From contig NW_001865045.1 of NCBI RefSeq assembly GCF_000002865.3, positions 1,252,135 through 1,300,515 of the forward strand: a stretch of DNA of 48,381 bases, given 5' to 3'. Shown here in pieces: positions 28,775 through 48,381 of this stretch (position 1 is the first letter of the stretch; each line of letters starts with the position of its first letter). A program made the translations under genes and the position numbers. The notes under the pieces were generated by a model that was given only the letters and a program-made list of their open reading frames with translations, had not been told where the DNA came from and ran no database searches. The DNA comes from Monosiga brevicollis MX1. Its lineage: Eukaryota; Opisthokonta; Choanoflagellata; Craspedida; Salpingoecidae.

Positions 28775-31700
28775 ATGGCCATTGTGCGTCCCGGTGGCCA
28801 ATGGCTGCTGCCACTCTTGGTCGCCGTGCTATGTGCGTTGTCTCAAACCTTCGCGTGGTCCACGCAGCCCAAGCTTTCGCCGAATGGCAACGCCGCTCAC
28901 GACCCGAAGATATTAAATCAGAATGACGATTCGAACGCAAACCAAAGCCAACACAGGTTCCGCGTGGCTCGCCAACAGCTGAACGAGTTAATGCAGCCTC
29001 TTTCCTTGCAAACCTTTTTTCATGATTATTTTCAGAAGGCCCACGTCGTGGCTCATGCCACAGGGCCGGTCAACCCAGACTTCATCGTGGCTGACCCCAA
29101 TGCTTCATGGGCTGAGACGGCCGAAGCTGTTCTCAACCCTCTATTGAATCGTTCCGACGATGAGCTCAGTCTGCTATTCAAGATGAGCGCTATTCAACTC
29201 CGTGACGCCAACGCTTCTGCCGTCTCTTCTCATAATTTGACAACGGTAGACCTTAAACATCTTCTTGTTGACCAAGGCTATAGCATCGTTTATCGCAATG
29301 AGCACAATCGCGAAGAAGACCTGTACCAACGAAACCTACTTGCCAATAGCGTGACGTCTCTTGTTCTTCTTCAGCCGACTCTTCATTATTATCTTAGTGG
29401 ACCCCACGCCAAGGCTTTGCCTGCGCACACCGACCGTAGCGAGTAAGATGTTGTGCGGAACCGGGTTGCTCATGCCAAACTTGGTCTCCTCGCTAATTCA
29501 CGCTTTGTTGGCATGTCGTCTTTTTTATTTCTTTTTTTTTTTGTTCGATCAGCATCTTTGTCTTTCAACTTGCAGGGACGAAGCACTGGACAATTTGCTC
29601 GGTTCCTCTTCCTGATGCCTCATGGACGCCAGCTGAATGGGCTCAACAGCAAGAAGTGAATGCCAAACAGTCGATGGGTACGTTGGGCGAGCATCGAGGC
29701 ACAAGGGATACAGCCTTGCCAATAACAAATCTCTGCGGGCCGGACGTAGGTTGCCGCAACCCAAAAGAAGCAGAGTTGAATGGATTGGAATGTGAGCACC
29801 ACGTTCTTCGCGCTGGAGACTGGCTGTACATGCCAAAAGGTATGAAAGGCTTGCCTTCTTTGCTGTCAACTCTATCTCTGTACTGCTTCTAATGCAGATG
29901 ATTGCCCGAGAAGGTACGGTTCATTTCGCGCAGACCATGGATGACTTTTCCCTGCATGCCACTGTGGGCTTCAGTCCTTCCTCTTCCTGGATCAACTTTC
30001 TTGAGGCCATATGTCTGGAGGGCCCGCCTGTGGCCGTTTCCTGCACTGAATTTCGAGCCGTACTTACGGCACTGCACACAAGCCGCCACTTCCTCTGGCT
30101 CTCGATGTTAGCCACCGTCACGTCAAGCACTGCACCTGCCAGCGCCCAAGCTGTTTCACCCGACGAAGTGATTTTGGGACTTCAAACTGCCACTCTGGCT
30201 CGTTTTGCATCACTGCAGTCCTTGCATCTGCCCCTTGATGTGTTGAATCGGACGTTCTTTTACCAGGCTAAAGAAGACTGGCTCAAGTCCATCCGCACAC
30301 TCTCCCGCTCGCTGAATCAGATATTTCCCCAAGCTTTCTCCACGTTCCACAAGAAGGACGTTCAGGAAACAGAGGATCACGCTCCGCTCGAAGTGCATCG
30401 TCACAGACGAGATGACGTGTGTTTATCTGATCTTAGTTGCCAGACATGTGAGCCTGACACCTGTCACACTAAGGACTGTGAAGAAGGTAAGGTAGTACAT
30501 TGCTACCAACGTCTTTCGTCACTGTCATCTCATCTATCTCTTTTCTGCCTAGGCTGTGACGACGGTTGCTATTACGACTGGAACGAATTTGCTATCATTT
30601 GCACTACGTCTTGTGATGACTTTTGCACTGTCAGTATCAGCTTTGGTTCTATCTTTGATAAAAAAACATCGTAATCATTGAACAAACATGTTGTTTGCTA
30701 CTGCAGTGTGTGTGTTACGAAGGCTGTTATGCCTACCCTGGGAACTATAACCCAACACTCCTGACTTGTGAACCATGTCGGCGCGGTAAAGTACAACCCA
30801 ATCAGGCGCACGTCGATCATTGCACTCCCTGCGAAGTCGGTAAGCTCCTCCTTCCTTTTACTGATTCCCGTCTCTTTTTTTTTTTTTTTTTTTTTTTAAA
30901 AAAAAACAAAAAACTTGACACGCGGCGCAATGAACCGTCTTTTGCTTTTTTTTTGTAGGAAAATATGCGGACGTAGAGGGGCTCGCTTCGTAAGCTGGGT
31001 CCCTTGACACTTGGCTCGTCTGCACAATAGCGTGCCGTTTTCTCATGACATCCCTGATATTCCCAGCTGCAAGGATTGTGAACCTGGAAAGTATGCTGAC
31101 TGGACAGGGAGCGAAACCTGCAAGGCACGTATGCCCATGGCAATCATGTGCCAACCCGTACTTTTGGCTGGGGTTTGCAGCGTTGTTTTGTCTCTCATTC
31201 ATCGAGTTGGGATGCTCAAGCTCAAACTCAACAATCTGTAATTATGTAGAACTGCCCCGGCGGCCAATACAGCATAGGTGGCACCCAATTTTGCTTTGCA
31301 TGTCCTGCTGGGACTTACTCGACAGGAAGCGCAGCAGTTTGCACCGATTGCCCCCCAGGCACAACCAATCCTGCAACCGGGAAACATGAGTGGTGAGTGC
31401 GATTATTTTGTGGCAAAAAGCGTGATCGGTTCCTTGTAATGGCGCACAGTACTTGCCTTGTCTCACGCCAACTTTCCATGCCTCAGCTCCACGTGTAAAC
31501 CCAATCACCTCATGCCGTTTCAGGGATTCCCTCATAGTTCTTGCTGGAAGAGGTAACCGTTTGGGTCTTTTCTGCATCGTCTGTGTTTTACTGATCCTGG
31601 TGTCTCACGCTCGTTTCGTATGGTACCATTGTGGAACGCAGCTATGGTATTCCCGAAAGCGGGTGGTGCACATTTTCGGGCCAGCTTTGCAACTGCCAGG

Positions 31701-34700
31701 CATCACATCTCAATCAAGGGTCCAGGGTGATTGAGTTTGACGACGTGGATGGTGGTCGTTGCAACCGCATCATAACCGACCCGAAGGTCTATGGCATCAC
31801 TCTCAGTATGTTCGGCAAATCCCATTATTCTGTCTCCCACGTGGCCTGCAAGGATTTCGAGTGTACCAATCAAGACGTACAGCGTCATGATGCAGCCGAG
31901 GAATACTTGACTCCAGCTTACAGCAAAATCTCCACGGTACGAGTCACGATCCCATCGCAAAAGCCTTTCGTTGAGTTTGAATTTCTCCACTGATGAACAT
32001 GAATGTGATGTCGTTTTGGCCTCGTAGACTGAGTCCGTTGCGATTGAGTACAGCTATCAGATTTCCAACAATGCCTTCGTGTTGCAACACACCGTTTCTA
32101 ATGCCAACCGTAATGCAGAGTGGCCATATCAGGGCCACGGCGGCCTGATCTGGCCATCGTCACGCCTTCGGTTCTCCAGCACTGACGTCCCCAATCTGGA
32201 CTTGTCAACGTCAGGCGAAACTTGCAACAAGGGAGAAAACAGCCAGTGGGAAGTGATGACTTGCACGGCAACTACAGACATCTTGGTGCAACACGGTCAC
32301 AAGTTCCGACTCTCATTTTTTGCCAGCAACCAGGGTCGATGGGATTACATCAAGCCGTCTTCAATCTACAATAGGGTTTGGAGTGCGCGAAATGCAGAGG
32401 CAGAAACATATCCAGTTGACTCGGTCTATCTTCCAGGCAAGACCACACACATGACATACACGGCTGAGCTGGACTTTGTTTCGCCTTGGCATTGTAGTGT
32501 TGGACCGACGCTAGGGCAGCGAAGCGGAGCAGCTCCATTCGCACAGGAACTCAGCATCGTGGATGACGAAGGTTGCAGCGATTGGAAAAGTGCTGATAGT
32601 ATTCTTCACTTTCCTGCTGGGAGGCGCTTCATCAACAACGTGGCAGATCTGTGTGTGTGGACAACCTCTGGTTGGCGCTCATCGGGACACGTCATCTCGG
32701 ACTTGGAACTCACCGCCTTCTCCTCTTCCAAAGTGGGAAATGCGATGACGGCTCGTCGGGGGGCTGATGACTCCAAAGCCTTGGCAATATTGGGCGTGCA
32801 AGCTGATTCAGCCGACAATTTCCAGTTGAGCTTTAGCCACAGCGTTATGTCACAAGTATTGACCGGTGCCGCTATTTTAGCCGTCATTGTTGAGCTTTCA
32901 GTGATGGATGTAGGTCAAACCAATGTGATGATCGCTCGACGTGCACCAGTGTACTTTGACCCTGACGTGCCCATGGTGCAGCTGGCCTGCACAATCAATT
33001 GTGTCAGCGTACCCAGTGCTCTGATGTCTGACAGCAGCGCAGAGCAAAATCAGCATCACTTTTATACCAGCCTGTCGGTCACCAAAATTCGTGCCTACAT
33101 TGACCGCACCATCTTCAGTTGCCCCAAGGTGGCTAGTCTAGAGATGGAGTTGGAAATTCATCCGGCGTTTACGGATACGCCTTCTTGGAGCGGTAGCGCG
33201 TATGACAGCGATCATGACGCCCTCATGTTTGAAACTTGGCAAGGTATCGACCGTTTCAAGGGTCAGATTGTGCGTTTGCGTCGATGGGACGGCGCTGATG
33301 AGACAGCTGAATCCGAATGGAAAGACCTAGGTCAGAATCCAGACTATGAGTTTTCTGTGGAACTCGTATCTGGGTACGAGTACTTAGTGGCTTTCGAAGC
33401 TTGGACGCCAATTGCTGTGGAGCATGACATGGTGCCAGGCACGGCTAAGCGTGCAAATCAGGTCGGCACCACCGACAAACGTCTTCGTGTGGATCACACA
33501 GCGCCTGTCGGTGACACGCCCGACGTTGTGTTGGAAGTGGGTGGCGTCATCACGGTGCTCGAGGAATTTTTGGCTGCCAACTCAGACGTCGATGGCGCTC
33601 TCAAGGGCCTGCCCGCCGTCCAGGCGCGGGGAACCACGCCCTTGTTCTTCATCATTGACCACGACCTGCAACATGTCGAGCTTACCTTCAGCTTGTTGGA
33701 CGAGGAGAGTGGCCTTCGGGCCATTGACGTGCGCACATATCAACTTGACCTACACTCCACTGCTGCGCAACTGATACACGAGCGTGCCGTTGGCATTACG
33801 CGCTTTGTACGCAACGCCGATACGTCTGCATCCTGCGACGCGAGTAGTGCTTTTTCCTGGTATGCGTCGACGCGAGATCGCGACGTCACTCATGCAGCCC
33901 ACGGAAGTTCAGGCTGCCGATGCACAGCGTACGATCCCGCGGGCAACTTCGACCACTGCTACCGTCAGCACATGTACCTCGATGGCAACAACCATTACTC
34001 AAGCGACTACACGCCCGTGCCAGCGGCTCAGCTCTACTTGATCCAGGTGGAGAGCGAGAATCATGCAGGCATCACCACGACGCTCGAAGCGATGCTTCGC
34101 GTCGATTCAACCCCACCCGATGTAACGCACGCACACGTGCAAGATAGTGCTTCCCTTGGGCAGCTCGACATTGATTTCATGCAAGTGGGCACGGGCAACC
34201 AGGTGACCCTTCACGCAAGCTTTACCGGGTTTGTTGACTTAGAAAGTGAAGTGCGAAACTATTTGATTGCTTTTACCGACAAGTGCCTCACTCTTGAGGA
34301 CTATTGCGGCAAGAATAATATTGATTCTGCTCATGGAAACGCCTGTTACCTGTCACCTGTGGACGAGGCGCAGTGGCTTGCCGCAGCGCCTGTCCGTGCG
34401 CTCTTCAAAGCCAACGTGCACAGCCAGACAGTCACAGTGGATAGCAATACGAAGCGAATCTACGCAAATGTTATGGCTCAGAACAACGCCCTGTTGTACT
34501 CGGCCATCCAATGCTCGGACGGCGTAGGCTTTGACCGTACCCCTCCAACCGCCTCCAATCTGGCCATCACGGGAGCGGCCATTCGCCCAGGCATCGTGAC
34601 CTCTCACGACGGCTCTGCTCAGTATTACATATCCAAGTGGGGTGTGCTACAGCCTTTGCCGCAAGCATGTGGTGGCAACTTTCCAGCGCTTTCTCCCAAC

Positions 34701-37700
34701 TTTGCTACGGTCATGGCTGGGAGTGACGACTTTTTCACAGGCACCGACGGTCGTCTCGATGTACCTCGGGGCTTTGCCACGGGCCGAAACGCCACCGCCT
34801 TGCCTGCTGAAGCTCTGGTCTGCTCGCAACTGACACCCGCAGTCTTGGTTTACAACGGCTCTTTGGAACATTTGGTGGCCTCGTGGAACGCAGAAGATGC
34901 CGACAGTGGTATTTGGCGCAGCACCATCTCTGTCTTGAGCGAGGACGGGAGCACCGAAGCCAGCGTGGCAACCCGCAACAACTACTTGGAAACCTCTGCG
35001 CTAGCCTTGGAGGGCCTAGACGAGGTTACGTTTCAGATTGAGGTCGCCAATCAGGTGGACTTGAACACGGTCATCGACGTGGGACCCTTTGTTATGGACC
35101 ACACCAAGCCCGTGCACAGAGCCAACCCGCTCACCACAGTAACAGACGATAATGAGATTGTCATCACAAACTTTAACCAACTCTTCGTGGATGCTGAAAC
35201 CAAGCTGTGCCGTTTTGATATTGTCATTGGTAAGATTTTTCTGCGGGATTGTTGGTCTTACCGCTAAGTCTTGTTGATGCCGGCCCTTCTGTACTCGACT
35301 CGACTGCAAAGTATGCTCGATACCGGCCAGCTCAACACGGGAGCACACTTGGTCTCACGCTTGTTCTGTGTCTAGAATACGATGGTGGCTCAGCGGAGAG
35401 GTCAATAGCTACAATGGATCCCGATGCGTGCTTGGGTGAGATGCCGGCAACGTACACGATCTCACCGCCACGCTTGACGAATGCCATCAATGTTGTCTAT
35501 ACGCTACGTATAACGGCCTTCAACGCGGTTGGCATGCGCAATCAAGCCTCAGTGTCAGTGGAGCTTGTCTACGCCCCACCCACGCCCTCCCTAATCTGGG
35601 ACGTGCTAGAGGTGACCGACAAGGCCGACATCGACTACATCCCGGATACAGTACATTTGGGTGCCTCGTGGCCGAGCGTGGCGGGCGCCAGTCTGCTGCA
35701 GGTGTCGCTAATTGCTTCTCCGGCAGGCGGGCATGGTTCTGATCAAACGTCCGTTGGGCACGGCACACAAACAGTGGTTGACTGGGTCGCGCTGCCTGGA
35801 TCAAGCACGGGGTACGTTTTTTCTTCCTTCACACTTGTCGCCGGTCGTCACTATCGCACGGTCTTGCGCGCATCCAACGCGGCTGGTTCGAAGGAAATCA
35901 AGACCAACGGCGCCTTTGCTACCCCAGTCAATACCGAGCCGAGCATCGATTTCCACCTCGGCCGTACTTGCAGCCAAACGGCCCCTAGTTTCGAATGTGT
36001 ATCCGAAGAGTGTGTCACCACCTTCGCTCTTGTATCAGATTCCAATTCTTTCGGTGATCAACTGTTTATCTTTCATCACACGGTTCCTGTTGAACCCAGT
36101 CGATACTACACCTTGAGCGTCAAGGCAACTAGCCAAGTGTCAGCCAACGACCAGCTACAAGTGTCTGTGTATGCAGCTCGCGCGGGTGCGCTGCCTGACG
36201 CTTTGCTGGGTGCTGCCGGCGTGAGTACTACAACCAGTGCTGAGATGGAGTTTCAGACCCTGAGCACCCATTTACTCATTTCCATTCGAAGCACGTCTGC
36301 ACACATTCTGGAACTTCTAGCTCCTGTGCAGCTCAAGGCCTGCCGCGCCTTGGGTTACACTGGGGCCAGTGCACATGACGTTTGGAGCGCGCCTGAAGTG
36401 ACAACGGCCAGCATACGTACCCTGGTTGACGAGGTGCGCTGGATGCCTGTGCTGACGAGCGGGCTTGGTGGAAACGATGCCCCTGATCAGGCTCTTGTTG
36501 AGCAAGCGGGACTGACCGAGTGGCAGCTTGGTGACCATGTGGCCGTGGCTGAATCAATGGCGGGGAATGAGGTTCGCGTGGCAGCCCAGGCCTGTTTTCC
36601 CAAACCCGGAGGCTGTATGCAGTCCGTTCTAAGTGAGCCGTTGGTTTTGCCTGCTGAGCCCGAAGATGTCGTGACTACAGCCACGTGCAACATCGCGACT
36701 ACGGATGAACGTGCGGACGATTATCTTTACTCTCTTGTGTGGGAGCGCTTTGACACAGTCGACGGTGAGTTTCGGGATTTGGTGAAATGCGAAAGTGAGG
36801 AGATTCCGGGAATCCGGCAATGATTTGACCAGAACTTGACCTGTGTGCTTTGTTTTCTGCTGTAGTCAATTCCGAGGCTATCAACGTGTATGAAACGAGC
36901 CTTGTCGATGACCAAGGGTGAGGAAAGCACTTACTAATTTCCCTCCCCCCCTTTTTTTAAATTGCCAGCCCAGCGGCGATGCAAGCTTACGACCCCTCGC
37001 CACCATGACCTGCACGCACTTACACGTAGGCACTTGGCTGTGGCGGGGACCTGGACCTGGCCAACAAGTCAGACGCGGCGTCCTTATCTGGAGATGAACA
37101 CCACACACATGAAGACCACCGTTCCTCTCAATGCCGTCAACTTTATGCATCTTCTGCACGAAGCCACCAGTCTGCAAGCTGCTATTCGCCTCTGGACGCC
37201 CGATGGTCTTGCCAAAGAAACCATGGTCACCTGCAGCGTGCCTGAGGACCCTATCACGCCAGTCGTTGCGGTGCGTCATTGGACTGGTGAATGCTGGTCA
37301 TCTGGAATTTAATGTCCTGGATCTCATCGAGTGCTTGCTCTTGGCCTGACAGGTTCCTTGGAGCGATGTCTCTCAAAATCCTGCGTTGCAGAAACTGCCC
37401 GTCAAACGCCACCACACCACCACCGATCTTCATCACTTTGCCGCCTTTTGGCCTCGCCGGTGGCAAGCGTTTGAACGTCTGGGCTTGGAGAACATTGTGT
37501 ATGGCTGGGACCTATCCAGTGTATCTAGCGATACCGGTACTACCACGATGCTTAGCCAAGACAATACAACGGCTCAATACGCTATGCTTCAAGGCTTGCA
37601 CTTGAGCGACGGCATGCTACTCCGCTTTTGCGTGTCCATCATCGAGGCAACACCTCAATCTTTGGGATGGCGGTATTGCGCGCATGATGTGAGCGTGGAT

Positions 37701-40700
37701 CTATCACCGCCACACATCAGCAGCCTAAAGCTGTCTCATCCCCACGCCAGCAGTGAGGTGGGCCACGGCACGGAGGCTCTGCAGCTCAATTGGCATGTCA
37801 ACGCCTCTGATGTCGCTGACCTCAGCATTTTGGTTGGCTATCAAGCGGGCCGTGGCGACATTGCTGCGGTATACGACGTGAAGCCAGCAAGCTCCGCTTT
37901 TCTCTTTCAAGACCTAAGTCTTCAAAGTGGTCGACCCATTTATGCCACGCTGCAGGCCATTGACTTTGCGGGCAACATGGCTTCCCTCACCAGCTCCCCA
38001 ATCATTGTGGACACAACACCGCCATATTTTGTGGGGACCTTGGAGGGCGAGATGGATCCAATGCGTGACGGAATAGGGGAGCTTGGCTACCTGCTTCGGA
38101 TCGACTTTGATTTGTTTGAGGACGATGAGAGCTTGGTGGTGAAGCACACCTTGGCTCTGGGCAGCAGTGCGGGCACATCAGATATCCGAGGAGCGAGCAC
38201 AGCCACAGCCAGTCCTTGGGACTTACGAGTGCCTTTGCACCACCATGGCGCTGATATCTTTGCGACTCTGTGCGCAACCAACGAAGCTGGTCTCTCCGCA
38301 TGCGTATCGGAGCTCTTGCTGACGCTGGATGCGACGCCACCGACAGTGGACACATCCAAACTGTCAGCAACGGCCAGTTGCGTGGAAGGTCGTCACCACC
38401 GGGTGCGTCTCGATTTGGACTGGACCGGGGCTTTTGAGGAACCAGACTCTGAAATTTTGGAATTCCAAGTGTTAGCAGGAGACAAACCGGGGGATGCCAG
38501 CATTTTTCATGACATGGTAACGCGCAAAGCCATTAGCTTCGAGGTTGCCCACGGTTTGGTGGATGGCGAGCACCTGCAAGTGACCGTGTACGCTACCAAC
38601 ACCGACCAGCAGCTTAGCTCTCCGCTAACCTCTTCACTGCTCGTGGATTGTTCGGCACCCTTGTCGGGTGCGGTCGAAGTCTACAACGCCGAGGGCCTGC
38701 CCTACCATTCAAGCCGCAGCAGCTTCCGTGCCAGCCTGGTGGGATTTGTTGACCCTCATAGTGGGATTGCACAGGTGCAGTATTGTCTGTCGACAGCGGT
38801 CAATTCGTGCGACGTTTTGAACTGGACGATGGCAGTCCACCACACCGAAATTCACCACCGATTTGGAAGCAACGTTTTGCAGTCTGGGGCTCGCTACTTT
38901 GTCCGCGTGCGTGTGACCAATGGGATGGGCCAAACAACCGAGGGCATCAGCGCCAGCTTTGGTGTTGACACGACGGCACCCACCGTCAGTGGCTTTGCTT
39001 GGCAGCATCCGATTTCGCGGACTCCCGTGTCGGCACAGTACTTGCGCTCTGTGTTGCTGGCCGATTGGACCTCGACAGATGAGGGTGGCGCCGGCGTGCA
39101 CTACCATGAAGTGGAGGTGGCCGTTCATCACGATGAGGCGGGTGGTGAGCTTGCTGTTGTGAGCGAGTTGGAGTACGATGCCAGTCTGAGTGTGCTCAAC
39201 CTCACGCTGCAACATGGTGAGGTGTACTTTCCTCGCATCTCAAGCTGCGACGGCGCAGGCAACTGTCAAATCCAGGATCTGGTTCCCTTGGCCATGGACG
39301 TAACCCCGCCGTTAGCCATCAGGCTTCATCACAATGGTGTCTGGAATGTCGTTGCCGGTGGCACATTGCGGTACACCGTAAAAGTATCGGCTCCGATCGA
39401 CGAGGAGGGCACAGAAATTACGCACTTCTACGTCAAAGTGGGCGATCAGGCGCCCATTACCTTTACAACCTATAGCCCAAGCGGGTACGCCAGCTTGCCA
39501 GATATGATCCTTGGGGTCACAATCTTTGGGATAGGACATTGTTGGTTGAGCCTCAACATCAATAGTGACTCAAGCTGTGCTCATCTGAAATTTGTTTTCA
39601 TCTAGGTTTGTTGTGGATGTGCCTCAGACGATGGAAGAAGTATCGCTTCTTTCTTTCACCTCGGTAAGCCCCTTTCTTGAGACTGAGAGTTGAAGAAGAA
39701 GCTTGGTGCTCATGTGACTTGTTGCACTATCAGGAAAACGCGGTTGGGCTGCGGCATACGCAAACCTTTTTGATAGAACGACACGAGGGTGGCGTGCTGG
39801 CCCCACGCTACGGCTGCTGGCGCTGGCAGCATTGCCAAAGCCGCGGTGTTGGTGTGGGAACATGTGATTGCCCAGAGGACCTTGAGAGCGTAGCATTTGA
39901 CACTAATTTTGACGCAGGCGCGCTATCTCTTGTCGTTGAGGACGGCCTGATTCCCGGCGAAGATTGGGATGAACAACCTTACACGTTCACCTTGGGTGCG
40001 CACTGGACAGCAACTTCAACGCCGTTGCGATATGAAGTCACATTTACCTGTGGAGGGCAGGAAAAAGCTTGGATTGATGCTGGTCACTTTACAGAGTACG
40101 TGCACACGCTGGAGCCGGATGCCGAAGCGTATGCAAATGGGATCGAGTGTTTCGCCTACGTACGTGCATGGCGCACCTACAACCAGTTTGTAGTGGCGCG
40201 CAGCGATGGCGTCACCATCCGCCACGAGTGGCTGCGGGTCAATCAGCAAGCCGCACTGCTGGATGGCTACAAGCTACCCGTGCCCGGCTTTGGTACCGAT
40301 GACAAGTTGTTCCCCAAGCCCTTTCATGACATTGGTACGCTGAAAGCCGAGTTTCTGCTTGTCTGGGTGGCACATGTGCACCCATTTCGAACATCTCATG
40401 TTGTGATGTTTATCACAGACGGCCAGCAAAGCACCAGCGAATTGGCCACGACGTTTGCGTGGTCAGAGCAAGGCTCTTCCGGCGTGGTAAGTCATGGGTG
40501 TTTTTGAAATCGCTCCACGAGCCGTGAGTCAGCTAACGCCTTTTGTGGCTGTATACATAACAGGTGACTGGCTCAGTCGTGGCATTGAGCGATCTTGACA
40601 ACGTTGCTACCTATGAGGTTGGGTTTGGTACAACACCCGGGGAGCAGGATGTGTTGGCTTGGACTCTGGCTTCTGCTTCGACGGGCGCCCTGCGCAGCTC

Positions 40701-43700
40701 GGGGCTGAGCCTGGTTCATGGACAGCGGTATGTCCTGGTTGAATGTGAGCAATGCAGTGAAACTGCACGATAAATCTCACGTCGGCATGCTGCCCATGGT
40801 TTATAGGTACTACAGTGCGGTGCGCGTTGAAACCAAGTTTCGTCACACGCTCGAGGTACGTTGTGGACTCAGAAGATGCGCTGCAGTTTGTGTGCACTAG
40901 CGTCTCACCACGACGACCATTTGTTGGTGACGGGTTTTTGGATCTCAGGTCGTGAGTGATGGCGTGATGGTGGACGACACTCCGCCATTGGTCGGAGTGG
41001 TGTACTTTGGTCCGCGCGGAGGCTATCTTCCGGCGACAAATGTGAAGGAGAATGTGAGCATTCGCTTCGAGGGCTTTGTGGACCCTGAAAGTGCTCTGGC
41101 CGAGTATGTTGTGGCCTTGGCTCGCGTGAACAACGGTGTCGTAGATGAAGCAAGCGCCGATTTTTCATCGACAGGTCTCTATCCCAATGCGACGCTCTCC
41201 CTGGCCGACGCTGTGCCGGGCGCCTCCTACGTTGCCCTGGTCAAGGCAATCAACAGCGCCGGCCTGACATCAGCAGCAGCTGTCTCGGAGCCCCTCGTGC
41301 TTGACGAGGAAGGACCCCAATTTTTGAGCGTGTTGCGCGTGCCTCTGAGCGACAGTCAAAATAGCGCCTTGGGCAGCCAATTGACGGTGACTGGCACGGC
41401 TACGCAAGGCAATGCCGTTCACGAGTTTCCCGTCGACTCACCCGACATTCTTGGAACCTCCCTAAGTGGCACACGCATGACTTTGACGCCTGATGCCCCG
41501 GTGGTGCTGACCATGGCCCTGACGTTGGGGCAGCAGACATGGCCAACACGCGTTGCCATCAGCTTTGACATTGTCTGCGCAGGGGGGGCGCCACGCACAC
41601 TCCTGCGCATTTTCGGCTCTGTTTCCAACGCAGTGAATGGTGATGTGCATCACGTTGCATCCTGTGAAGGCTTTCGGCAGCAAATTGAACGCTGGGTTGA
41701 AGTTGAAGCTGTGGGCCAGGACATTACTGTAGAGCTTGAGGTCACGTTGCTCCACGCAGACACGAATGCCACGCTCTTGGTGGGCAGCACGCGTGTCCAT
41801 GAGGTGGCGGAGCTCAACTCTGATGCACGGACACTACCTAGCGTCACTGTGCAAGACCGAACATTTGCCGTTTTGCACGGCAGCGGTGCCGATTCTGCGG
41901 GAACAACGTGTCAATCTGCGCCAATGACCGTGCCCACAGGCTGGCGCGTGGCCACAGGTTATGATCCAACCGTTCGCGACGCTGCACGTCAATACAATTG
42001 GGGCACAGCATATCTTGCGACGAGTTCCGGTGTGGCGTACGCCACGGCACAGGCATCTGACCTTGCTCCCGTAGCGAGCAACGTCCACGTCACAAATGGT
42101 GGTGCACATGTCGTGGCTGCCGACTGCGCAAGTCATGGCATGGGTATTTTACTGGAGGCTGGCTCGGGTGCAGTCCAGGTGGATCAGCCCTACCACCGAG
42201 GTGCTGACGAACTGCAGGCGCACTGGGTTATAGCTGATGCCGCCAGTGGCATCCGACGTGTGTTGGCAGGCGCTGGTAGCCAGCCTGAGGTACCCGTGTA
42301 CCTCCCACTGCGACCGGCCGATAGCATTGACTCGTTGAACTTGCACATGAACGAGCGCGCACCGGAGCACGGTCACCAGATTGCCGTAATCGTAGAGGCT
42401 CAGGATTGGGCTGGACTGCGGGTCCGCGCCACCAACGACAAGGTGGTGGCCATTGTTGACGAGTCAGACCCAGAGGTGACAGCAGTGCAAATTGCGCCCA
42501 CCACAGAAAGTGGCATTGTGGCTGGAGCCTCTTACGTCAACGTTACCTACCATGCGACAGACCCGCAATCAGGCATCCTCCGTTGCCACGTCTCGGTGCT
42601 GGCTCCCGACAACAACAACCAGTTGCACGGTGAAACAGTCGTGCACTTTGAGCAATCGAGTGTATTAGTGCCCATGACGACGCCGCTCGAGGCCGATGAC
42701 GTGGTTCATGCACGCGTCGCTTGTGTTAACGGGGCTGGTTTGATGGAGAAGGTTACATCGCCGTCCATTTTTGTTGCATCATCGGACATGGCATTGGTGA
42801 CAGCAGCAGAACCATATGTGCTTGAGCCCGCAACGGGCACCAAGATGTCCTCAGGCATCTGGGCGGTGCAGGGCTACGAAGTCTTAGTGCTACACCTGAA
42901 AGGGCCAAGTGAGCGCCTGCTGGCTGCCATGGACCGCGATAAGGAGTCAGGCGTTGGACTTGAGACGCTGGTCGAACGTGTTGACGGTCAGCTTGCCAAC
43001 TGCCAGGCCGGCCCCTTGACAGCGTGCCCCTTCTCGGATGGTCGCACCCGCCTGCCCGGGTGCCCGCCCGGTAGTGTTGCTCGTGATGCCTCAACCTGCT
43101 GGTACCAACATGGCCGTGCTACCAGCTTCCGGATCAACATTGATGATACGGTCAACTCGAGCCAGCTCCTACCCGGGGTGGTATATCACGTAAGTCAAAT
43201 TCAGGAAGGTTTCTTCTTTTGTTTGAAGGATGAGAACCACTCGTCCTCATGAGCTTTTTGCATCGTGTAATGATAGGTCACAACGCGGGTCCGCGTGGAA
43301 AATCAGGTTCAAGAGCTGGCCATTGCCGAGGTCGTTCTTGACCGCACGCCACCCGTCATTGCGGCCGGTAAGTCAATTGCAAAGCTGATCTGATATTGTT
43401 TTTTGTGTTTGTTGTTCACACCAATCGATAAACTCCTTCCGGTCTTCGTGCTGCGTAGTCCCCCAACTTGTGGGCGCAAAGAACCCAGAGGTATCAGTCA
43501 ATCTGCAAGGCGTTTGCCAAGAAGACGTACTGTCCAATGAGCTGCGACACTTTGTCATCTTTGGTGATGGCGCGCGTGCTGGATCTCTGGACTTGACGGA
43601 CTGGGCTTTGGTGGAATCGGCGGACCTTTCTAGCTCGACCCACGTCATTAATGTAGAATCTCTTGCGCAGCTTCAAATAGCCGTGCGCTGTGTCAATGCT

Positions 43701-43754
43701 GCAGGCATGACGTCGCTGACTAGTGAAGTGTTTGAAATCACGTGGGAGGCTTAA
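28775..43754 (+). CDS. Giant secreted protein: signal peptide, Cupin_4/JmjC-like dioxygenase domain, cysteine-rich repeats and about 15 D-x-T-P-P repeats
   Basis: Twenty-one exons: 28775-29442, 29553-29839, 29911-30486, 30553-30629, 30707-30839, 30959-30989, 31067-31124, 31250-31392, 31642-31936, 32028-35229, 35376-36764, 36866-36917, 37030-37270, 37353-39544, 39606-39663, 39734-40486, 40564-40727, 40807-40855, 40949-43189, 43277-43367, 43459-43754. All junctions are in phase and sum to 12,996 nt (4,331 residues plus TAA). One intron (31125-31249) uses a GC donor. The signal peptide has core WLLPLLVAVLCAL, cut near A27. No transmembrane segment or GPI-type tail is visible (the end is FEITWEA), so the product should be secreted. 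The 28775 Met is preferred over an upstream in-frame ATG at 28712 because it starts the signal peptide directly. Role inferred: matrix or surface-layer component, possibly with hydroxylase activity. Confidence 0.78.
28960..29990 (+). other. Cupin_4/JmjC-type Fe(II)/2-oxoglutarate dioxygenase-like domain in the ectodomain
   Basis: After the signal peptide, LMQPLSLQTFFHDYFQKAHV matches the entry of Cupin_4 (ribosomal-oxygenase type) proteins. Splicing exon 1 (ending 29442) to 29553 gives HTDRSDIFVFQLAGTKHWTI, the H-x-D strand followed by the G-x-K-x-W strand of the family. Splicing 29839 to 29911 gives LYMPKEGTVHFAQ and then TMDDFSLHATVGF, supplying the distal His. The predicted metal triad is H218, D220 and H323. 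Known relatives (NO66, MINA53 and bacterial YcfD-type enzymes) are nuclear or cytoplasmic hydroxylases of ribosomal proteins; a copy behind a signal peptide is odd. Activity is not shown, but no triad residue is missing. Confidence 0.7.
30391..30417 (+). other. Basic cluster between dioxygenase-like domain and cysteine-rich repeats
   Basis: LEVHRHRRDDVC sits exactly at the domain border, with R-H-R-R followed by acidic residues, a plausible proprotein-convertase site. Cleavage would free the N-terminal enzyme-like domain from the repeat region. The giant minus-strand protein has similar sites. Confidence 0.35.
30420..31660 (+). other. Cysteine-rich repeats (GCC2/GCC3 or TNFR-like) over six small exons
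   Basis: Small exons of 31-143 nt encode units such as CEPGKYADWTGSETC, CPGGQYSIGGTQFC and CPAGTYSTGSAAVCTDCPPG. Their C-x2-C-x2-G-x-Y-x(6-8)-C spacing is that of ephrin-receptor/GCC2-GCC3 type repeats. Exon borders fall between repeat halves and the phase is preserved, including over the GC-AG intron at 31125-31249. These units link the dioxygenase-like domain to the repeat ectodomain. Confidence 0.7.
32028..43754 (+). other. D-x-T-P-P / FN3-like repeat ectodomain
   Basis: About 15 repeats end in D-x-(T/S)-x-P motifs: DHTAPVGD, DSTPPDVT, DRTPPTAS, DHTKPVHR, DLSPPHIS, DTTPPYFV, DATPPTVD, DCSAPLSG, DTTAPTVSG, DVTPPLAI, DDTPPLVG, DESDPEVT and DRTPPVIA. Each is preceded by a strand with N-x-A/M-G (CATNEAGLSA, VRVTNGMGQTT, AINSAGLTSAAA). 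A mid-repeat G-F-V-D-P/L-E-S/H-S-G/E element is strongly conserved (FTGFVDLESEV, LVGFVDPHSGI, FEGFVDPESAL). The same two motifs occur in the divergent minus-strand gene, so the families are probably homologous. Confidence 0.65.
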
Positions 43755-44164
43755 TCCACGGTGGCTTCGATTGCTCATTTTTCTTGTGACGCCTTAATTC
43801 GATAATCTGCTTTTTGTATCTGTGCAAATTATTTTAATCTCTATGTCGCTGTCACCATGTGTCTTCATATCAATGATTATCAATGTCATAAATCGACTAT
43901 CAAATGCGCAGCTCAAGCACAAGTCGGCGTCCAGCGAAGCACAGAGAGGCCGTCAATTCGTGTCCACAGAGTGGCACAGGCTGACAGAGCTGGCAGGCGC
44001 AAAGTTTGATATGAAAAAAAAGTGAAACCTCAGAGAGATAGACCTGCAGGCAACAAGTGGTCCTAAAGCACGTGGCCATCCAATCGCCTTGGGTTGGGAA
44101 CGCCAGTAGGGTCAAAAACTGGTGGGTGGGTCATGGCAGTCCAGCCGAGACAGCGCTGTTTGAG
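43755..44164. other. Intergenic stretch with no recognised gene
   Basis: AT-rich 3' flank of the giant plus-strand gene, then neutral sequence. A short open frame around 43822-44025 has no recognisable domain. Upstream exons of the recombinase-like gene may lie here, but none could be defined with confidence. Confidence 0.4.
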
Positions 44165-45182
44165 CACATTGGCCAGACCCCGAGTCTGCGGCAAGAGTTT
44201 ATCCAAACGGAAGTGGCGAGCTGACCTTTCGAGAGAACAGGGTGCGGGCATGGCTCCTATATGTGTGCAGGTTCAACGAGCTAGCCCTCACCTACACGCA
44301 CATTGCCGGAGGTACGATTGGAATCAAGCCGTCTCTTTTTTTTTTTTTTTTTTTTTTCTTTCTTTTTTTTTTTTCGCGCCACTCATGCCTGTTTGCATTT
44401 GACTAGGTCTGCCGCCACGAGCCTCTGTGTATCAAGGGCTGTCCTATAAAAATGGCGTGGGACGGCAACGAGCCGCGTTTTTTGCCGAGAAGCAGCTCTC
44501 CATATTGACCCGCGTGAGCAAGACCTACTGGCTGTCCCTGAACGAACAGCACACCTTTCGATACATGGACCAGGAAATCAGCACGCTGATATTCATGTAT
44601 TTGCTGCTGTGCAAGCCTCTGGAGCACATGCTGAGCAGCTGGCTGCAAAAGCGGGGCGGGCTGGACACCCCCGACGACGAGAACGGCATTCACAATGCCG
44701 AGCAGGACGACGAAGATTTGCTCGACGACGAGCTGGATGAAGACCACATGAGCCACGACGAGACGATGACATTGCGACGCGAGGTCCGGGACGCTCGAAA
44801 CCACTACAACAACAGCCACCTGCTCTTCAACATTGCGCCCCTGCAGACGATGGTCAGCCCAGCTACCATCTATGCGGCATTTCGTCGACAAATGACCACG
44901 TACCTGCATCGGCCAAAGCTGGGGGTGGCCACGTGGCGACACGCCGCAACCTTCTGGATGACGACATTTGTCATTAACCGACTGTCGGCCGAGACGACCG
45001 GCGCCCTGGGCAGCCTGATCCACACTCAAGCTCAACACTCTGGGGAGACGGCCCAGCGGGCCTATGCGCGCACAGCCAGTGACCATGTGCAAACCAAAAT
45101 GTCGTCGCGACTGATGCATCAAGTGGCCTCGCAAAAATGGCATGCTTTGTTTGGACTAGATCGCAAGCGCAGCATAGACTGA
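44165..45182 (+). CDS. Tyrosine-recombinase-like catalytic domain, probably 5'-incomplete
   Basis: An exon ending at 44311 (GGAG|GTACGA; its in-frame start is limited by a stop at 44161) splices in phase over a T-rich intron to exon 44407-45182. The joined protein reads FNELALTYTHIAGG then LPPRASVYQG: box I of tyrosine recombinases (G-x-R-x2-E/V). Further on, KLGVATWRHAATFWMTTF resembles box II (R-H-x-A-T), and QAQHSGETAQRAYAR supplies a His and the candidate nucleophile Tyr. The usual first box II His is replaced by Ala. An acidic insertion (about 44680-44760) splits the domain. The closing SQKWHALFGLD recalls the middle part of fungal telomere-linked RecQ-helicase-like proteins. No helicase follows; the frame stops at 45182. 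Confidence 0.5.
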
Positions 45183-45650
45183 CCTCTCGCCCGAGGCAAA
45201 CGGGCGTATCATCATGAACACGAGGGCCGAGCATGACGTACCCTACATGACCCAGCTGGCCAAGCAGGCGAGCATCTCGTGGGGCCACAGTTTCAACAGC
45301 CAAGAACAGTTGGACCTAACGCTATTCAGGAATGTAGAGTTGTGGTGTGAGAGTGAGCTCAAAGAAAAGACCCTAACGTTGTATTGTCATCATGCATGGG
45401 CGGTATGATGACGATGGCTGTGAGGTATTGAACCGTGTACACTGTTAATTGACAAGCAACATTACACTCACTCACAACGTCCAGAACATGACCGTTACAC
45501 CTTCCACATTTAAAAGAAAACCAAAGTGTAACAAAAATTTCACCCTCTGAGACAGCACCAAGATTCATTTTTGAACCTGAGCTATCTGCTCTTGCCGCGC
45601 CTTGCCCTCTTGCAGTCCTCGCCACCCTCTGCTCCTTACACCAACGCAGC
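45183..45650. other. Stretch without a recognised gene
   Basis: A short open frame (45214-45408) shows no known motif. The rest is low-complexity flank leading to the zinc-finger gene. No RNA gene or repeat was recognised. Confidence 0.4.
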
Positions 45651-46901
45651 ATGGCACAGAACCAAGAAGTGTTGTGCTGTCATTGCGAGCGTGCATTTCA
45701 CGTCGCCAAAAAAAGCACACACAGACAGAAAAACACACAAAAAAAACGCGACACGTCTCACTGTTCGGCACATAGGTCCATCAAAAAAGCACGCGAATCA
45801 CATTAAACGGACAAGTGATTATCCAACACCGAAACGAGGACGGGTACTTTCATTGCCCTGTCGACGGATGCCTCTACCACCATCAACGCGCAAACACCCT
45901 CAAGTCTCATCTCCGGCACAACCATGAGAACATGCCGACTTCAGTACCGGCTGCGCCTGCCGCCTGCCCTCCTAATCGTCAAAAACCTGCTCGGACGCGC
46001 ACGAAAAAACGTGTGGTCAAGCTTGATCAACAGCACGGCATTGCCGCGGCGCGAATTTTCATGGACGAGATTGCGTGCCTTGTATCCCCCGTCTTTGAGT
46101 CTCCAGTGTGCACGCAGTGCGGCCATGTCCTGAGAGGCAGGGTGACGCATCATCTGTTCAAAAAGCACCATGTGCGCTGCAGCCAAGAAGATATTGATGC
46201 AGCCATGGCACTCCTGCGCCCGCTGCAGCCCGAGGAGCCGCTGATCGACCTTGGGGCAGAATCTGAGCCTCGGATGCCTATTGAAGGCATCCCCATTCTG
46301 GACGGTGTGGGTTGCCCCCTGTGTCAGGCATGCTTCACGACAAAAGGCAGTCTGTGGAATCACATCGTAGCTGAGCATCCCGACGATCCAGAGGCCAAGC
46401 AGCCGCCTCGACGAGTCAAGCTGCAAAAGCCGCTGCGTGGTGCTGGGGCCCGCTGTGTCGAGGTCATTGTGGAGGAAAGCCACGACGCCTCGGCAGCCGA
46501 TGTGAGCGAAAATGAGGAGGAGCTGGAGGAGCAGCAGCGGTTCAAGCAGTTTATCTCAAGCACCCAGGCCATGGCCTCGGAGGCTGAGGATAAGCGATGC
46601 CCGCACGGCGTTCACCAGATGCATCCGTTCTACGACAGCGTGGGCATGACGCTGGTCATAGTCGGGCATGCATGAGCTGTTCTGGACGGCCTACGAGCAG
46701 CTCTCGGATCAGGGCCTGGCCGCCGCTGCGGTGACGCGTCTGTTTGACGACAATGAAGGGCAGTATCAACATCGCCCCATGCGGCAAGTACAGCCGCAAA
46801 CCGTCAGCAGGTACCTGAGTCTTGGAACACGCCTGGTCCAATTTTTGCTGCTGCTGGAGGCCATGCCAGCTATTGAAAGACGATTTGAGCTGAGACAGTA
46901 A
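45651..46901 (+). pseudogene. C2H2 zinc-finger gene fragment (OrsD/telomere-linked-helicase-like N-terminus), frameshifted and interrupted by a retrotransposon
   Basis: From the open frame beginning at 45815, three fingers are visible: C14-x4-C19-x12-H32-x4-H37, C99-x2-C102-x9-H112-x5-H118 and C167-x2-C170-x12-H183-x4-H188. A fourth Cys/His cluster precedes it in another frame from the ATG at 45651 (LCCHCERAF), probably a first exon whose junction could not be fixed. The frame ends at 46675, but homologous-looking sequence continues one frame over from 46662 (MHELFWTAYEQLSDQGL... RYLSLGTRLVQFLLLL) to 46901, so a one-base shift near 46661 is likely. The layout of separated fingers, H-P-F-Y-D and then a helical stretch resembles OrsD/DUF3505-type N-termini; this is from memory and unverified. 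The sequence then meets a copia LTR at 46913. Confidence 0.5.
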
Positions 46902-46912
46902 AGCGGTTCAAT

Positions 46913-47132
46913 TGCACTTCTCTCACAGGAGAGAACGATAGAAAACAGGAAGGGAAATATCCAAAAGAAAATGCCACTCACGGTCAGCGGGACCGTACTT
47001 ATAATCCGGTGGCTAAACACACCCAGAGTGTACGAGAGGGTTCCTCGACGGGCGGCGGCAGCTGCACATCGTCGAGTACACTTATGCAATCCTTCCAGAG
47101 GGATCTGGCAGGTGGTCGATGCTTGCACTCCA
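46913..47132 (-). repeat. Predicted 3' long terminal repeat, about 220 bp
   Basis: The LTR is bounded by TG at 47132-47131 (element sense), immediately after the polypurine tract, and CA at 46914-46913. A TATA-like ATTATAAGTAC lies inside. The left flank TCAAT (46908-46912) would be the 5-bp target duplication. Without the other LTR the outer edge is a best guess. Confidence 0.5.
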
Positions 47133-47135
47133 ATA

Positions 47136-47144
47136 CTCCCCCTC
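47136..47144 (-). other. Polypurine tract of the copia element
   Basis: GAGGGGGAG on the minus strand overlaps the pol stop codon (47143-47145) and abuts the predicted LTR. It is the plus-strand primer site expected in LTR retrotransposons. Confidence 0.7.
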
Positions 47145-48381
47145 AAGCAGAGAAGCATAACTTACGCATATGGCGTTCATGAGCATCGCGGGGTAACGGC
47201 TTGGTCAGAACGTCAGCCGTCATGTCGTCGGTCGGACAATAAACAATATCAACCTGGTTACGCTCGTACATCTCGCGCAGAGCATAAAACTTGATCAGCG
47301 TGTGGTGTTGTCCGCGCTGGGCATTGCCATTGATCACGTTGGCAATAGCAGGCTGGTTGTCACAGTAGACAAGTGGCTTGAGTTCAGGCAAAATGAGCAA
47401 CTCGTTGATCAGTTCACGCAGCACAACACCCTTGGCAGCACCACTGTGTGCAGCCATGTACTCAGCCTCTGCAGTCGAAGTCGCAGTCGTGGTCTGGCGC
47501 TTCGAACGCCAGTAAATGGGGCCATTGCACAGAAAAATGGCACAACCTTCACGAGACTTCTTGTCATGCTCTTGAGCAAAGCTTGCATCGGTGTAGACTG
47601 CAAGTTGCAGCTCCTGTGTATCCTCAAAGCGGATACCCAAATCCTTGGTACCTTTGAGGTAGCGCAGCAGGCGCTTGGCTGCCTGCCAATGAGTCTCATC
47701 AAAACACTGGTTGTGAGCACTCAGAAGACTCACAGTTGCAGCAATGTCAGGGCGTGTGTGAGTTGCAAGATAATTCAGCTTGCCCATCAGTTGGCGATAA
47801 GGAAAGTCGCCCTCAGTCTTGGTCACACGCTCCAGCTTCACACCGGTTGTCCATGGTGTGGTCATTGGCTTGCACGAGTCCATGTTGAACTCCTTCAGGA
47901 TGCTCTCGATGAAGGCCGTCTGCTTGATCATGATCGAGTCCTGGTAAATGGTAAACTCCATGTTGAGAAAGTTCTTGATCTGGCCAAAGTCCTTGGTCTC
48001 GAATTTGCCCTTGAGCTTGCGCTTGAAATTGTTGATGATGCGCTCTGTGCTGCCGACAAGCAAAATGTCATCAACATAGGCCAAAGCCCATACAATGTCC
48101 GTGTCCTCCTTGTAGACGTAGACGCACTCATCCTGTCGCAGTCGACGACATTGCATGATGTCACGCAAATACTTATCAAGTTCGAGATACCAGGCACGGG
48201 ATGCCTGCTTCAGGCCATACACTGCCTTGTTCAGCTTGGCATACTCACAGCCACCGAGTCCAGCCTCCAGACCACGAGGGACTCGGATGTAGATGTCCTC
48301 ATCAAGTGGCGCGTGCAAGAACGCCGTCTTGACATCCACCTGATGCACATGGTAATGCTGGTAAGTAGCAAGCGCCATCAA
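47143..48381 (-). CDS. pol: Copia pol C-terminal part: reverse transcriptase and RNase H (partial)
   Basis: Reads 48381 to 47143 without a break, 412 residues, open at the window edge. Reverse transcriptase motifs: HQVDVKTAFLHAPL (first catalytic Asp), a KAVYGLKQASRAWY block and AYVDDILLVG (catalytic D-D at residues 104-105). A connection region with YRQLMGKLNYLATHTRPDI follows. RNase H motifs: AVYTDASFAQ, STAEAEYMA and YCDNQPAIANVI, carrying the acidic residues. This order is diagnostic of Ty1/copia. It copies element RNA into DNA in cytoplasmic particles. The protein ends CFSA, with its stop inside the polypurine tract. Confidence 0.9.
   Translation of the reverse strand: MMALATYQHYHVHQVDVKTAFLHAPLDEDIYIRVPRGLEAGLGGCEYAKLNKAVYGLKQASRAWYLELDKYLRDIMQCRRLRQDECVYVYKEDTDIVWALAYVDDILLVGSTERIINNFKRKLKGKFETKDFGQIKNFLNMEFTIYQDSIMIKQTAFIESILKEFNMDSCKPMTTPWTTGVKLERVTKTEGDFPYRQLMGKLNYLATHTRPDIAATVSLLSAHNQCFDETHWQAAKRLLRYLKGTKDLGIRFEDTQELQLAVYTDASFAQEHDKKSREGCAIFLCNGPIYWRSKRQTTTATSTAEAEYMAAHSGAAKGVVLRELINELLILPELKPLVYCDNQPAIANVINGNAQRGQHHTLIKFYALREMYERNQVDIVYCPTDDMTADVLTKPLPRDAHERHMRKLCFSA

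Follow-up and report, generated by a model that had tools for sequence, protein, structure and literature searches.

JmjC_2 oxygenases are known as intracellular enzymes. The question raised by a gene of the choanoflagellate Monosiga brevicollis MX1 is what a domain of this class does at the beginning of a giant protein, between an apparent signal peptide and a long series of extracellular-type repeats. The gene lies on the plus strand of a stretch of 48,381 nucleotides from contig NW_001865045.1 (positions 1,252,135 to 1,300,515), which we call the window and whose positions serve as coordinates below. By sequence comparison its N-terminal domain (the head) is one among at least 24 paralogous loci in this genome. 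We regard the entry of these proteins into the secretory pathway as close to certain and catalysis by the heads as likely, and we lean towards reading them as secretory-pathway Fe(II)/2-oxoglutarate (2OG) oxygenase heads of surface proteins.

The first-pass annotation of this DNA, made from the letters alone, had described a signal peptide spliced in phase to a Cupin_4/JmjC head, with an ATG at 28775, a first exon ending at 29442 and an acceptor at 29553. All of this was upheld: the N-terminus is signal-peptide-like (best 10-residue hydropathy 3.01), the acceptor yields HTDRSDIFVFQLAGTKHW, and the position of intron 1 is matched in paralogue C43, ahead of IF[VS]FQLAGTKHW. The exon drawn from 29553 to 29839 kept its acceptor but was found to hold an intron of 72 nucleotides (nt), 29678-29749, whose excision gives QSMGCRNP, resembling TEGCRNPS of C43. 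This position is occupied by an intron in 16 of the 22 other family models and by none in 6; in two of the 16 models the donor was placed by hand, as was the C43 junction, which automatic alignment had put elsewhere, and some intron is required at the C43 site because the flanking matches fall in different frames. Coding read-through of the segment was rejected, since most paralogue models splice there. The following acceptor, first placed at 29911, was moved by one codon to 29914, which yields the RIOX-like YMPKGTVH; 29911 itself was rejected for its lower PF08007 score and the disrupted PKGTVH motif, and 29898 because the frame closes. The score against PF08007 (JmjC_2/Cupin_4) rose from 51.1 bits with the original splicing to 57.3 with acceptor 29914 and to 59.3 with intron 2 also removed, the Pfam gathering cut-off being 22 bits. 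The final match, which bears out the Cupin_4 assignment, forms a single stretch (E 3.6e-16, residues 201-318) in a query protein that included the Cys-rich part.

Two of the metal ligands named in the annotation, H218 and D220, stood, while the third is H298 and not H323, because of the missed intron and the one-codon acceptor shift. The iron triad thus reads H218/D220/H298, and K233 aligns with the 2OG lysine of MINA. In a phmmer search of the PDB the window head matched MINA/RIOX2 at 9.8e-8 and NO66/RIOX1 at 5.6e-7, and a profile built from ten of the 23 family heads matched them at 3.2e-21 and 4.2e-21, respectively; in the MINA alignments the HxD motif, the lysine at +15 residues, the tyrosine at -12 residues and the histidine of GT(I/V)H all align. 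Residues of this kind are iron and 2OG ligands in RIOX enzymes. Part of these assignments is given in sections of PMC6006756. By its profile match and its residues, the window gene head is a member of the JmjC_2/Cupin_4 class of Fe(II)/2OG oxygenases.

The head has many relatives in the same genome. A genome search with PF08007 gave 43 exon matches and one with the window head 42, both counts being lower bounds, and merging left 33 loci besides the window. The 22 that carry the motif pattern of the window head (HTDxxD...GxKxW, GC...C, YxPK/R...H) were modelled with a spliced protein aligner and hand-set exons, which replaced a gene finder with poor splice models. The other 11 were set aside by motif and not by tree: the RIOX-like locus C39, Cupin_8-like or partial ones, and the badly aligned C47:545k. 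The modelled members number 23 with the window included, and a 24th locus, C47:801984-802776, stands outside all 23-member counts. Residues Y206, H218, T219, D220, D223, K233, W235, C238, E257 and G265 are invariant in all 23 models, as are C266, C279, Y291, P293, H298, A300, H309, T311 and some others. The cysteines C238, C266 and C279 are accordingly kept in 23/23, and C328 and C338 in 22/23. The RIOX-like gene at C39:400718-401254 has a tyrosine at the position of C238 and no signal-like start.

A signal-like start, defined as a best 10-residue hydropathy of at least 1.9, is predicted in 21 of the 23 models, the window gene among them, and in one of seven other JmjC/cupin loci. When only the first in-frame Met was allowed, 20/23 members had such a start vs 6/48 background open reading frames (ORFs); with any in-frame Met the counts were 21/23 vs 15/48. 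A binomial value of 2e-17 for these starts was given no weight, as it pits chosen starts against first Mets, and in related genes. Between the head and the Cys-rich stretch a furin-like [RK]-X-[KR]-R site is found in 18 of the 23 models and a plain dibasic one in three more, and PF07699 matches three of the four paralogue stalks scanned. Among nine close pairs, dN/dS was 0.14, 0.15, 0.18, 0.39, 0.26, 0.17 and 0.30, two pairs being saturated, so that purifying selection is established at the level of sequence. The signal-like start, the domain family, the active-site residues, the cysteines, the basic site and the expansion of the family, together with the differing tails nearby, can all be read from the DNA.

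These tails are of several kinds. FN3-like shafts follow the heads of the window gene and C43, and at C48 Sushi repeats (2.2e-51) lie on the strand of the head, some 2 kb further downstream, their link to the head being drawn from proximity. At five or more of the 23 loci a tyrosine-kinase match follows downstream of the head and on its strand, in a scan that scored 135 of 686 candidates and in which the downstream sequence was short for many loci. Within 7 kb, a distance picked post hoc when the data had already been seen, a same-strand kinase occurs at 4/23 loci against 0.34 expected (P ~0.0004, C18 being outside this count), and the P value weakens as the distance is widened, to 0.0015 for 10 kb and 0.017 for 20 kb. 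The same scan gave no PF07714 kinase match near the window gene on C50 among the candidates scored. At the paralogues C56 and C18 (L040 6035-7393 and L042 5735-7288) Cys-rich repeats, a Ser/Thr stalk, a hydrophobic segment (mean hydropathy 1.9) and the N-lobe of PF07714 follow one another in one open frame, with a C-lobe exon behind; the head is linked to the stalk in these two receptor models only through inferred introns. Some oxygenase-headed proteins are probable tyrosine-kinase receptors, as far as gene models can tell. The exact motif HRDLAARN lies within the kinase at C38:702452 and C51:12055. Some of the head-linked kinases may be pseudokinases, because C54, C56 and C18 are without exact HRDLAARN and the C18 kinase (L042:5735-8078) appears by eye to be without the usual lysine, HRD and DFG. 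On the tree of the 23 heads, in which 10 of the 20 inner branches are well supported, the kinase label takes two changes, imposed by well-supported branches; it was equally clustered in 172 of 500 shuffles. The head thus appears to behave as an interchangeable N-terminal module ahead of FN3-like shafts, Sushi repeats and receptor tyrosine kinases. The annotation had suggested the giant neighbouring protein as a possible target, and this neighbour is not a general requirement for the head, because 23 further loci carry the head too and it also precedes tails of other kinds, tyrosine kinases among them. As side observations on the kinases, those at C15:194141, C20:231083, C41:162156 and C46:1106804 are akin to the head-linked ones with no JmjC_2 match listed nearby; the open frame around the match at C7:86555-87166 is given as 29,192 codons long, and frames of about 650-800 codons hold many similar kinase matches.

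How would such a head work? The signal peptide would take the chain co-translationally into the endoplasmic reticulum (ER), where the head would fold, C238, C266, C279, C328 and C338 probably being disulphide-bonded. It would then hydroxylate a residue in its own Cys-rich region or beta-sandwich shaft, or in a partner surface protein, with the Fe(II) and 2OG of the ER, which animal collagen hydroxylases also use. A furin-like protease would afterwards cleave at [RK]-X-[KR]-R between head and stalk, and the mature head might be set free or retained non-covalently. The animal ER 2OG oxygenases (collagen prolyl and lysyl hydroxylases, AspH) show that Fe(II)/2OG chemistry can act on secreted proteins, although they belong to other branches of the 2OG oxygenase fold and are not known to be fused to a substrate or to a receptor kinase. 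Catalysis, compartment, cleavage and substrate are what we infer in this scheme, and any particular substrate that might be named is doubtful. The earlier description, in which a Cupin_4/JmjC_2 domain of the secretory pathway or the cell exterior is fused to repeats, has good support, which comes more from the paralogues than from the window gene alone. Its further claim that the domain is a hydroxylase agrees with iron and 2OG residues kept in 23/23 models and with dN/dS of 0.14-0.39 in seven close pairs, a support that is indirect.

A different role could be argued from the kinase-bearing members, which make it a serious rival: the head would serve surface receptors as a sensor or as the part that binds a ligand (oxygen, 2OG, succinate, iron or a peptide) in its active site. 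The shaft or kinase would then read occupancy or turnover of that site, and no dedicated substrate would be hydroxylated. Five of 23 loci with a downstream same-strand kinase match, two of them with exact HRDLAARN, speak for it, and so does the strong divergence of the heads over similar shafts in the window gene and C43, which would be expected if the head sets specificity. We nevertheless hold it to be unlikely, since the iron triad and the 2OG lysine, a requirement of catalysis, are kept in all 23 models including those where no kinase was found, the basic site could detach the head from its receptor, and the C18 kinase looks inactive by eye. A bolder combination, in which choanoflagellate receptor tyrosine kinases evolved with a working Fe(II)/2OG oxygenase as extracellular sensor, coupling oxygen, 2OG, iron or a hydroxylatable ligand to tyrosine phosphorylation, and in which the same swappable, furin-released head was put on adhesion-type giant proteins, is speculative and would surprise us somewhat.

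The head might also be catalytically idle, serving in adhesion or folding or as a pro-domain that furin cleaves off, with the motif retained for metal-dependent folding. Cupin folds are often reused without catalysis, and a basic site behind the head is what a pro-domain would have, but idle JmjC domains commonly lose either the iron triad or the lysine/tyrosine pair of the 2OG site, and here both are kept in 23/23, which makes this explanation improbable. Very improbable in our judgement is an artefact of the gene model, by which head and shaft would belong to two genes, that of the head being short and its product secreted. It could appeal to the incomplete splice chain at 31124-32028 and to a crude gene finder that divided the region at high intron penalties; however, the order and strand of head and FN3-like shaft are repeated at C43, and the frames of the paralogue models continue from the head into Cys-rich sequence.

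Several points weigh against the interpretation of the heads as secretory-pathway oxygenases of surface proteins. In the window gene splicing at 31124-32028 is incomplete, so that the link between head and shaft depends on the colinear order in C43, a comparison that omits 2.75 kb of C43 between head and shaft. The dibasic site is absent in 2/23 models, one of them shortened; C28 is without an in-frame Met ahead of its homologous stretch; and at C12:70.9k some 28 residues precede the hydrophobic stretch. Because of the kinship of the members, 23 of 23 does not count independent events, the HTD active-site motif partly defined who belongs to the family, and the start codons were chosen with the hydropathy test in view. 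Residues may be kept without being proof of turnover. Finally, no winged-helix match to RIOX chains was seen past the JmjC part with a profile that itself ends near the end of the head; the residues ahead of the basic site are fewer than in RIOX.

Behind the head of the window gene (Table 1), the Cys-rich region matches PF07699 at 1e-6, the best stretch crossing a junction near 31124 that was set by eye and requires a GC-AG intron; the exon chain from about 31124 to 32028 is incomplete. The 11 shaft exons, picked by a program that favours open frames, splice to one frame of 3585 codons whose sole stop is the terminal TAA at 43752-43754. Against fn3 the shaft exons of the window gave weak matches below the cut-off, whereas a profile built from seven repeats picks up titin FN3 chains (best whole chain 3.1e-16; 14 sequences at E up to 0.1), and one repeat was modelled as seven beta strands with a mean predicted local distance difference test (pLDDT) score of 73.4. 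A C-terminal transmembrane segment was looked for in the spliced 32028-43754 frame and none was seen, the most hydrophobic 19-mer (2.09) being internal. Because the window gene and the C43 copy have this stop in common, the product, about 4.3 thousand residues long, looks secreted and not membrane-anchored. The ectodomain length of 4,331 residues given earlier is plausible as an approximate size, but the exact figure was not confirmed, the exon chain being incomplete.

The C43 copy (C43:1019061-1036300) carries head and FN3-like shaft in the order and on the strand of the window gene, and its shaft is colinear with ours from window position 34758 onward. The two heads share 44-53% identity with saturated synonymous sites; in the shafts, four exons have 85-92% identity with dS of 0.19-0.36 and a shorter last exon has 84%. 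The divergence switches between 31.7 and 34.8 kb of the window, an interval in which 2.75 kb of C43 lies outside the comparison. Both copies stop right after FEITWEA, and their homology persists to about 44.1 kb and then breaks. Either gene conversion kept the shafts alike or one of the heads was replaced, to judge from these identities.

Table 1. Features of the window gene (window coordinates) and kinase matches behind paralogous heads.
Feature	Position	Strand	Description
Exon 1	28775..29442	+	Signal peptide (residues 1 to ~28, by eye), N-terminal region, first half of JmjC_2 fold through HTDRS; donor GTAAGA
Intron 1	29443..29552	+	GTAAGA...GATCAG
Exon 2	29553..29677	+	Remainder of iron/2OG motif: D223 to K233, W235
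Intron 2	29678..29749	+	72 nt, in frame, stop-free; GTACGT...ACGTAG
Exon 3	29750..29839	+	C266, C279, GDWLYMPK
Intron 3	29840..29913	+	Tandem acceptor (GAG/AAG), 29914 favoured over 29911
Exon 4	29914..30486	+	Third iron ligand H298, C-terminal part of head, RHRR furin-like site (residues 457-460), start of Cys-rich region
Cys-rich region	30553..31392	+	Ephrin_rec_like (GCC2/GCC3-type) repeats; several short exons (splice-site list)
Shaft	32028..43754	+	FN3-like repeats, D-x-(T/S/C)-P-P linkers, 11 exons
Kinase match C38	6.2 kb downstream of head	same as head	
Kinase match C51	5.2 kb downstream of head	same as head	
Kinase match C54:2.06M	2.5 kb downstream of head	same as head	
Kinase match C56	1.8 kb downstream of head	same as head	
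Kinase match C18			Fifth locus, from a separate listing

About two dozen predicted outside-facing proteins with an oxygenase head in a single-celled relative of animals hint at hydroxylation of surface proteins or at sensing of an oxygenase type. If this is true, it becomes testable whether surface-protein hydroxylation by the JmjC_2 class predates or parallels animals, and whether an oxygenase can act as a receptor sensor. The closest known proteins are the histidyl hydroxylases RIOX1/NO66 and RIOX2/MINA, with which the window family shares the Pfam family, the HxD...H triad, the lysine/tyrosine spacing and the G-T-I/V-H motif of MINA, and from which it differs in its signal-like start, conserved cysteines, basic site and extracellular-type repeats. 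Sections of PMC6006756 place RIOX enzymes in the nucleus or nucleolus and describe a dimerisation domain and a winged-helix domain in them. JMJD8 is likewise a JmjC protein with a signal-peptide start, but the product of the window gene is more than a JmjC-only protein, as a Cys-rich region (PF07699) and an FN3-like shaft follow. JMJD8 is not known as a member of the JmjC_2 group and is a single gene. Parts of a 2017 report (PMC5684140) place it in the secretory pathway, by its signal peptide, and present it as the first of the JmjC proteins to be located in the ER lumen.

On the receptor side, the likeness is to the Monosiga RTKC receptors such as RTKC8, tyrosine-kinase receptors of choanoflagellates whose extracellular part is Cys-rich; in RTKC8 two Cys-rich domains and four HYR domains lie outside the cell and a CAP-Gly domain inside (sections of PMC10263333). 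The word JmjC is absent from the main text of that paper, and JmjC and cupin are absent from the main text of PMC8662651. The 33-nt gene part of the reverse primer with which the RTKC8 kinase was cloned (PMC10263333) matches our genome (39.47 Mb, 57 contigs) once without mismatch, at C21:293445, against no match in the reversed control; kinase-domain matches adjoin this site (C21:293709-294522), in agreement with M. brevicollis as the source. A literature search, mostly of titles and abstracts and with the 2008 Monosiga genome and kinome papers outside its scope, found no secreted JmjC_2 protein or oxygenase-headed receptor kinase. What we describe would be a secreted and, in some members, receptor-linked form of a known enzyme class, and no priority is claimed for it. 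Testing the oxygenase heads is practical because laboratory hosts can produce domains one at a time, as was done with the kinase domain of RTKC8 (sections of PMC10263333).

Among prokaryotes and viruses, relatives were sought with two short peptide patterns, either of which had to match, a condition that distant relatives may escape. These scans gave one relative among 29 candidate stretches of bacterial and archaeal genomes and none among 23 of viral contigs. The single relative, L055:1165-2031 from a Polyangia bacterium bin, is a JmjC_2-like protein that shares the HTDPYDVFV motif and has no evident signal peptide.

As for the flanks of the gene, an Rfam scan of the window gave nothing informative. 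The minus strand from 1487 to 27113 holds long open frames of one or more giant divergent neighbours, head to head with the oxygenase gene, with matches to growth factor receptor IV and Furin-like domains, weak Cadherin-like ones and Big_9. On the other side the region 44160-48381 runs to the end of the contig, which terminates where the window does. It contains an ORF (45776-46675) that matches OrsD (1.4e-7), with C2H2-like fingers, and is perhaps part of a mobile element.
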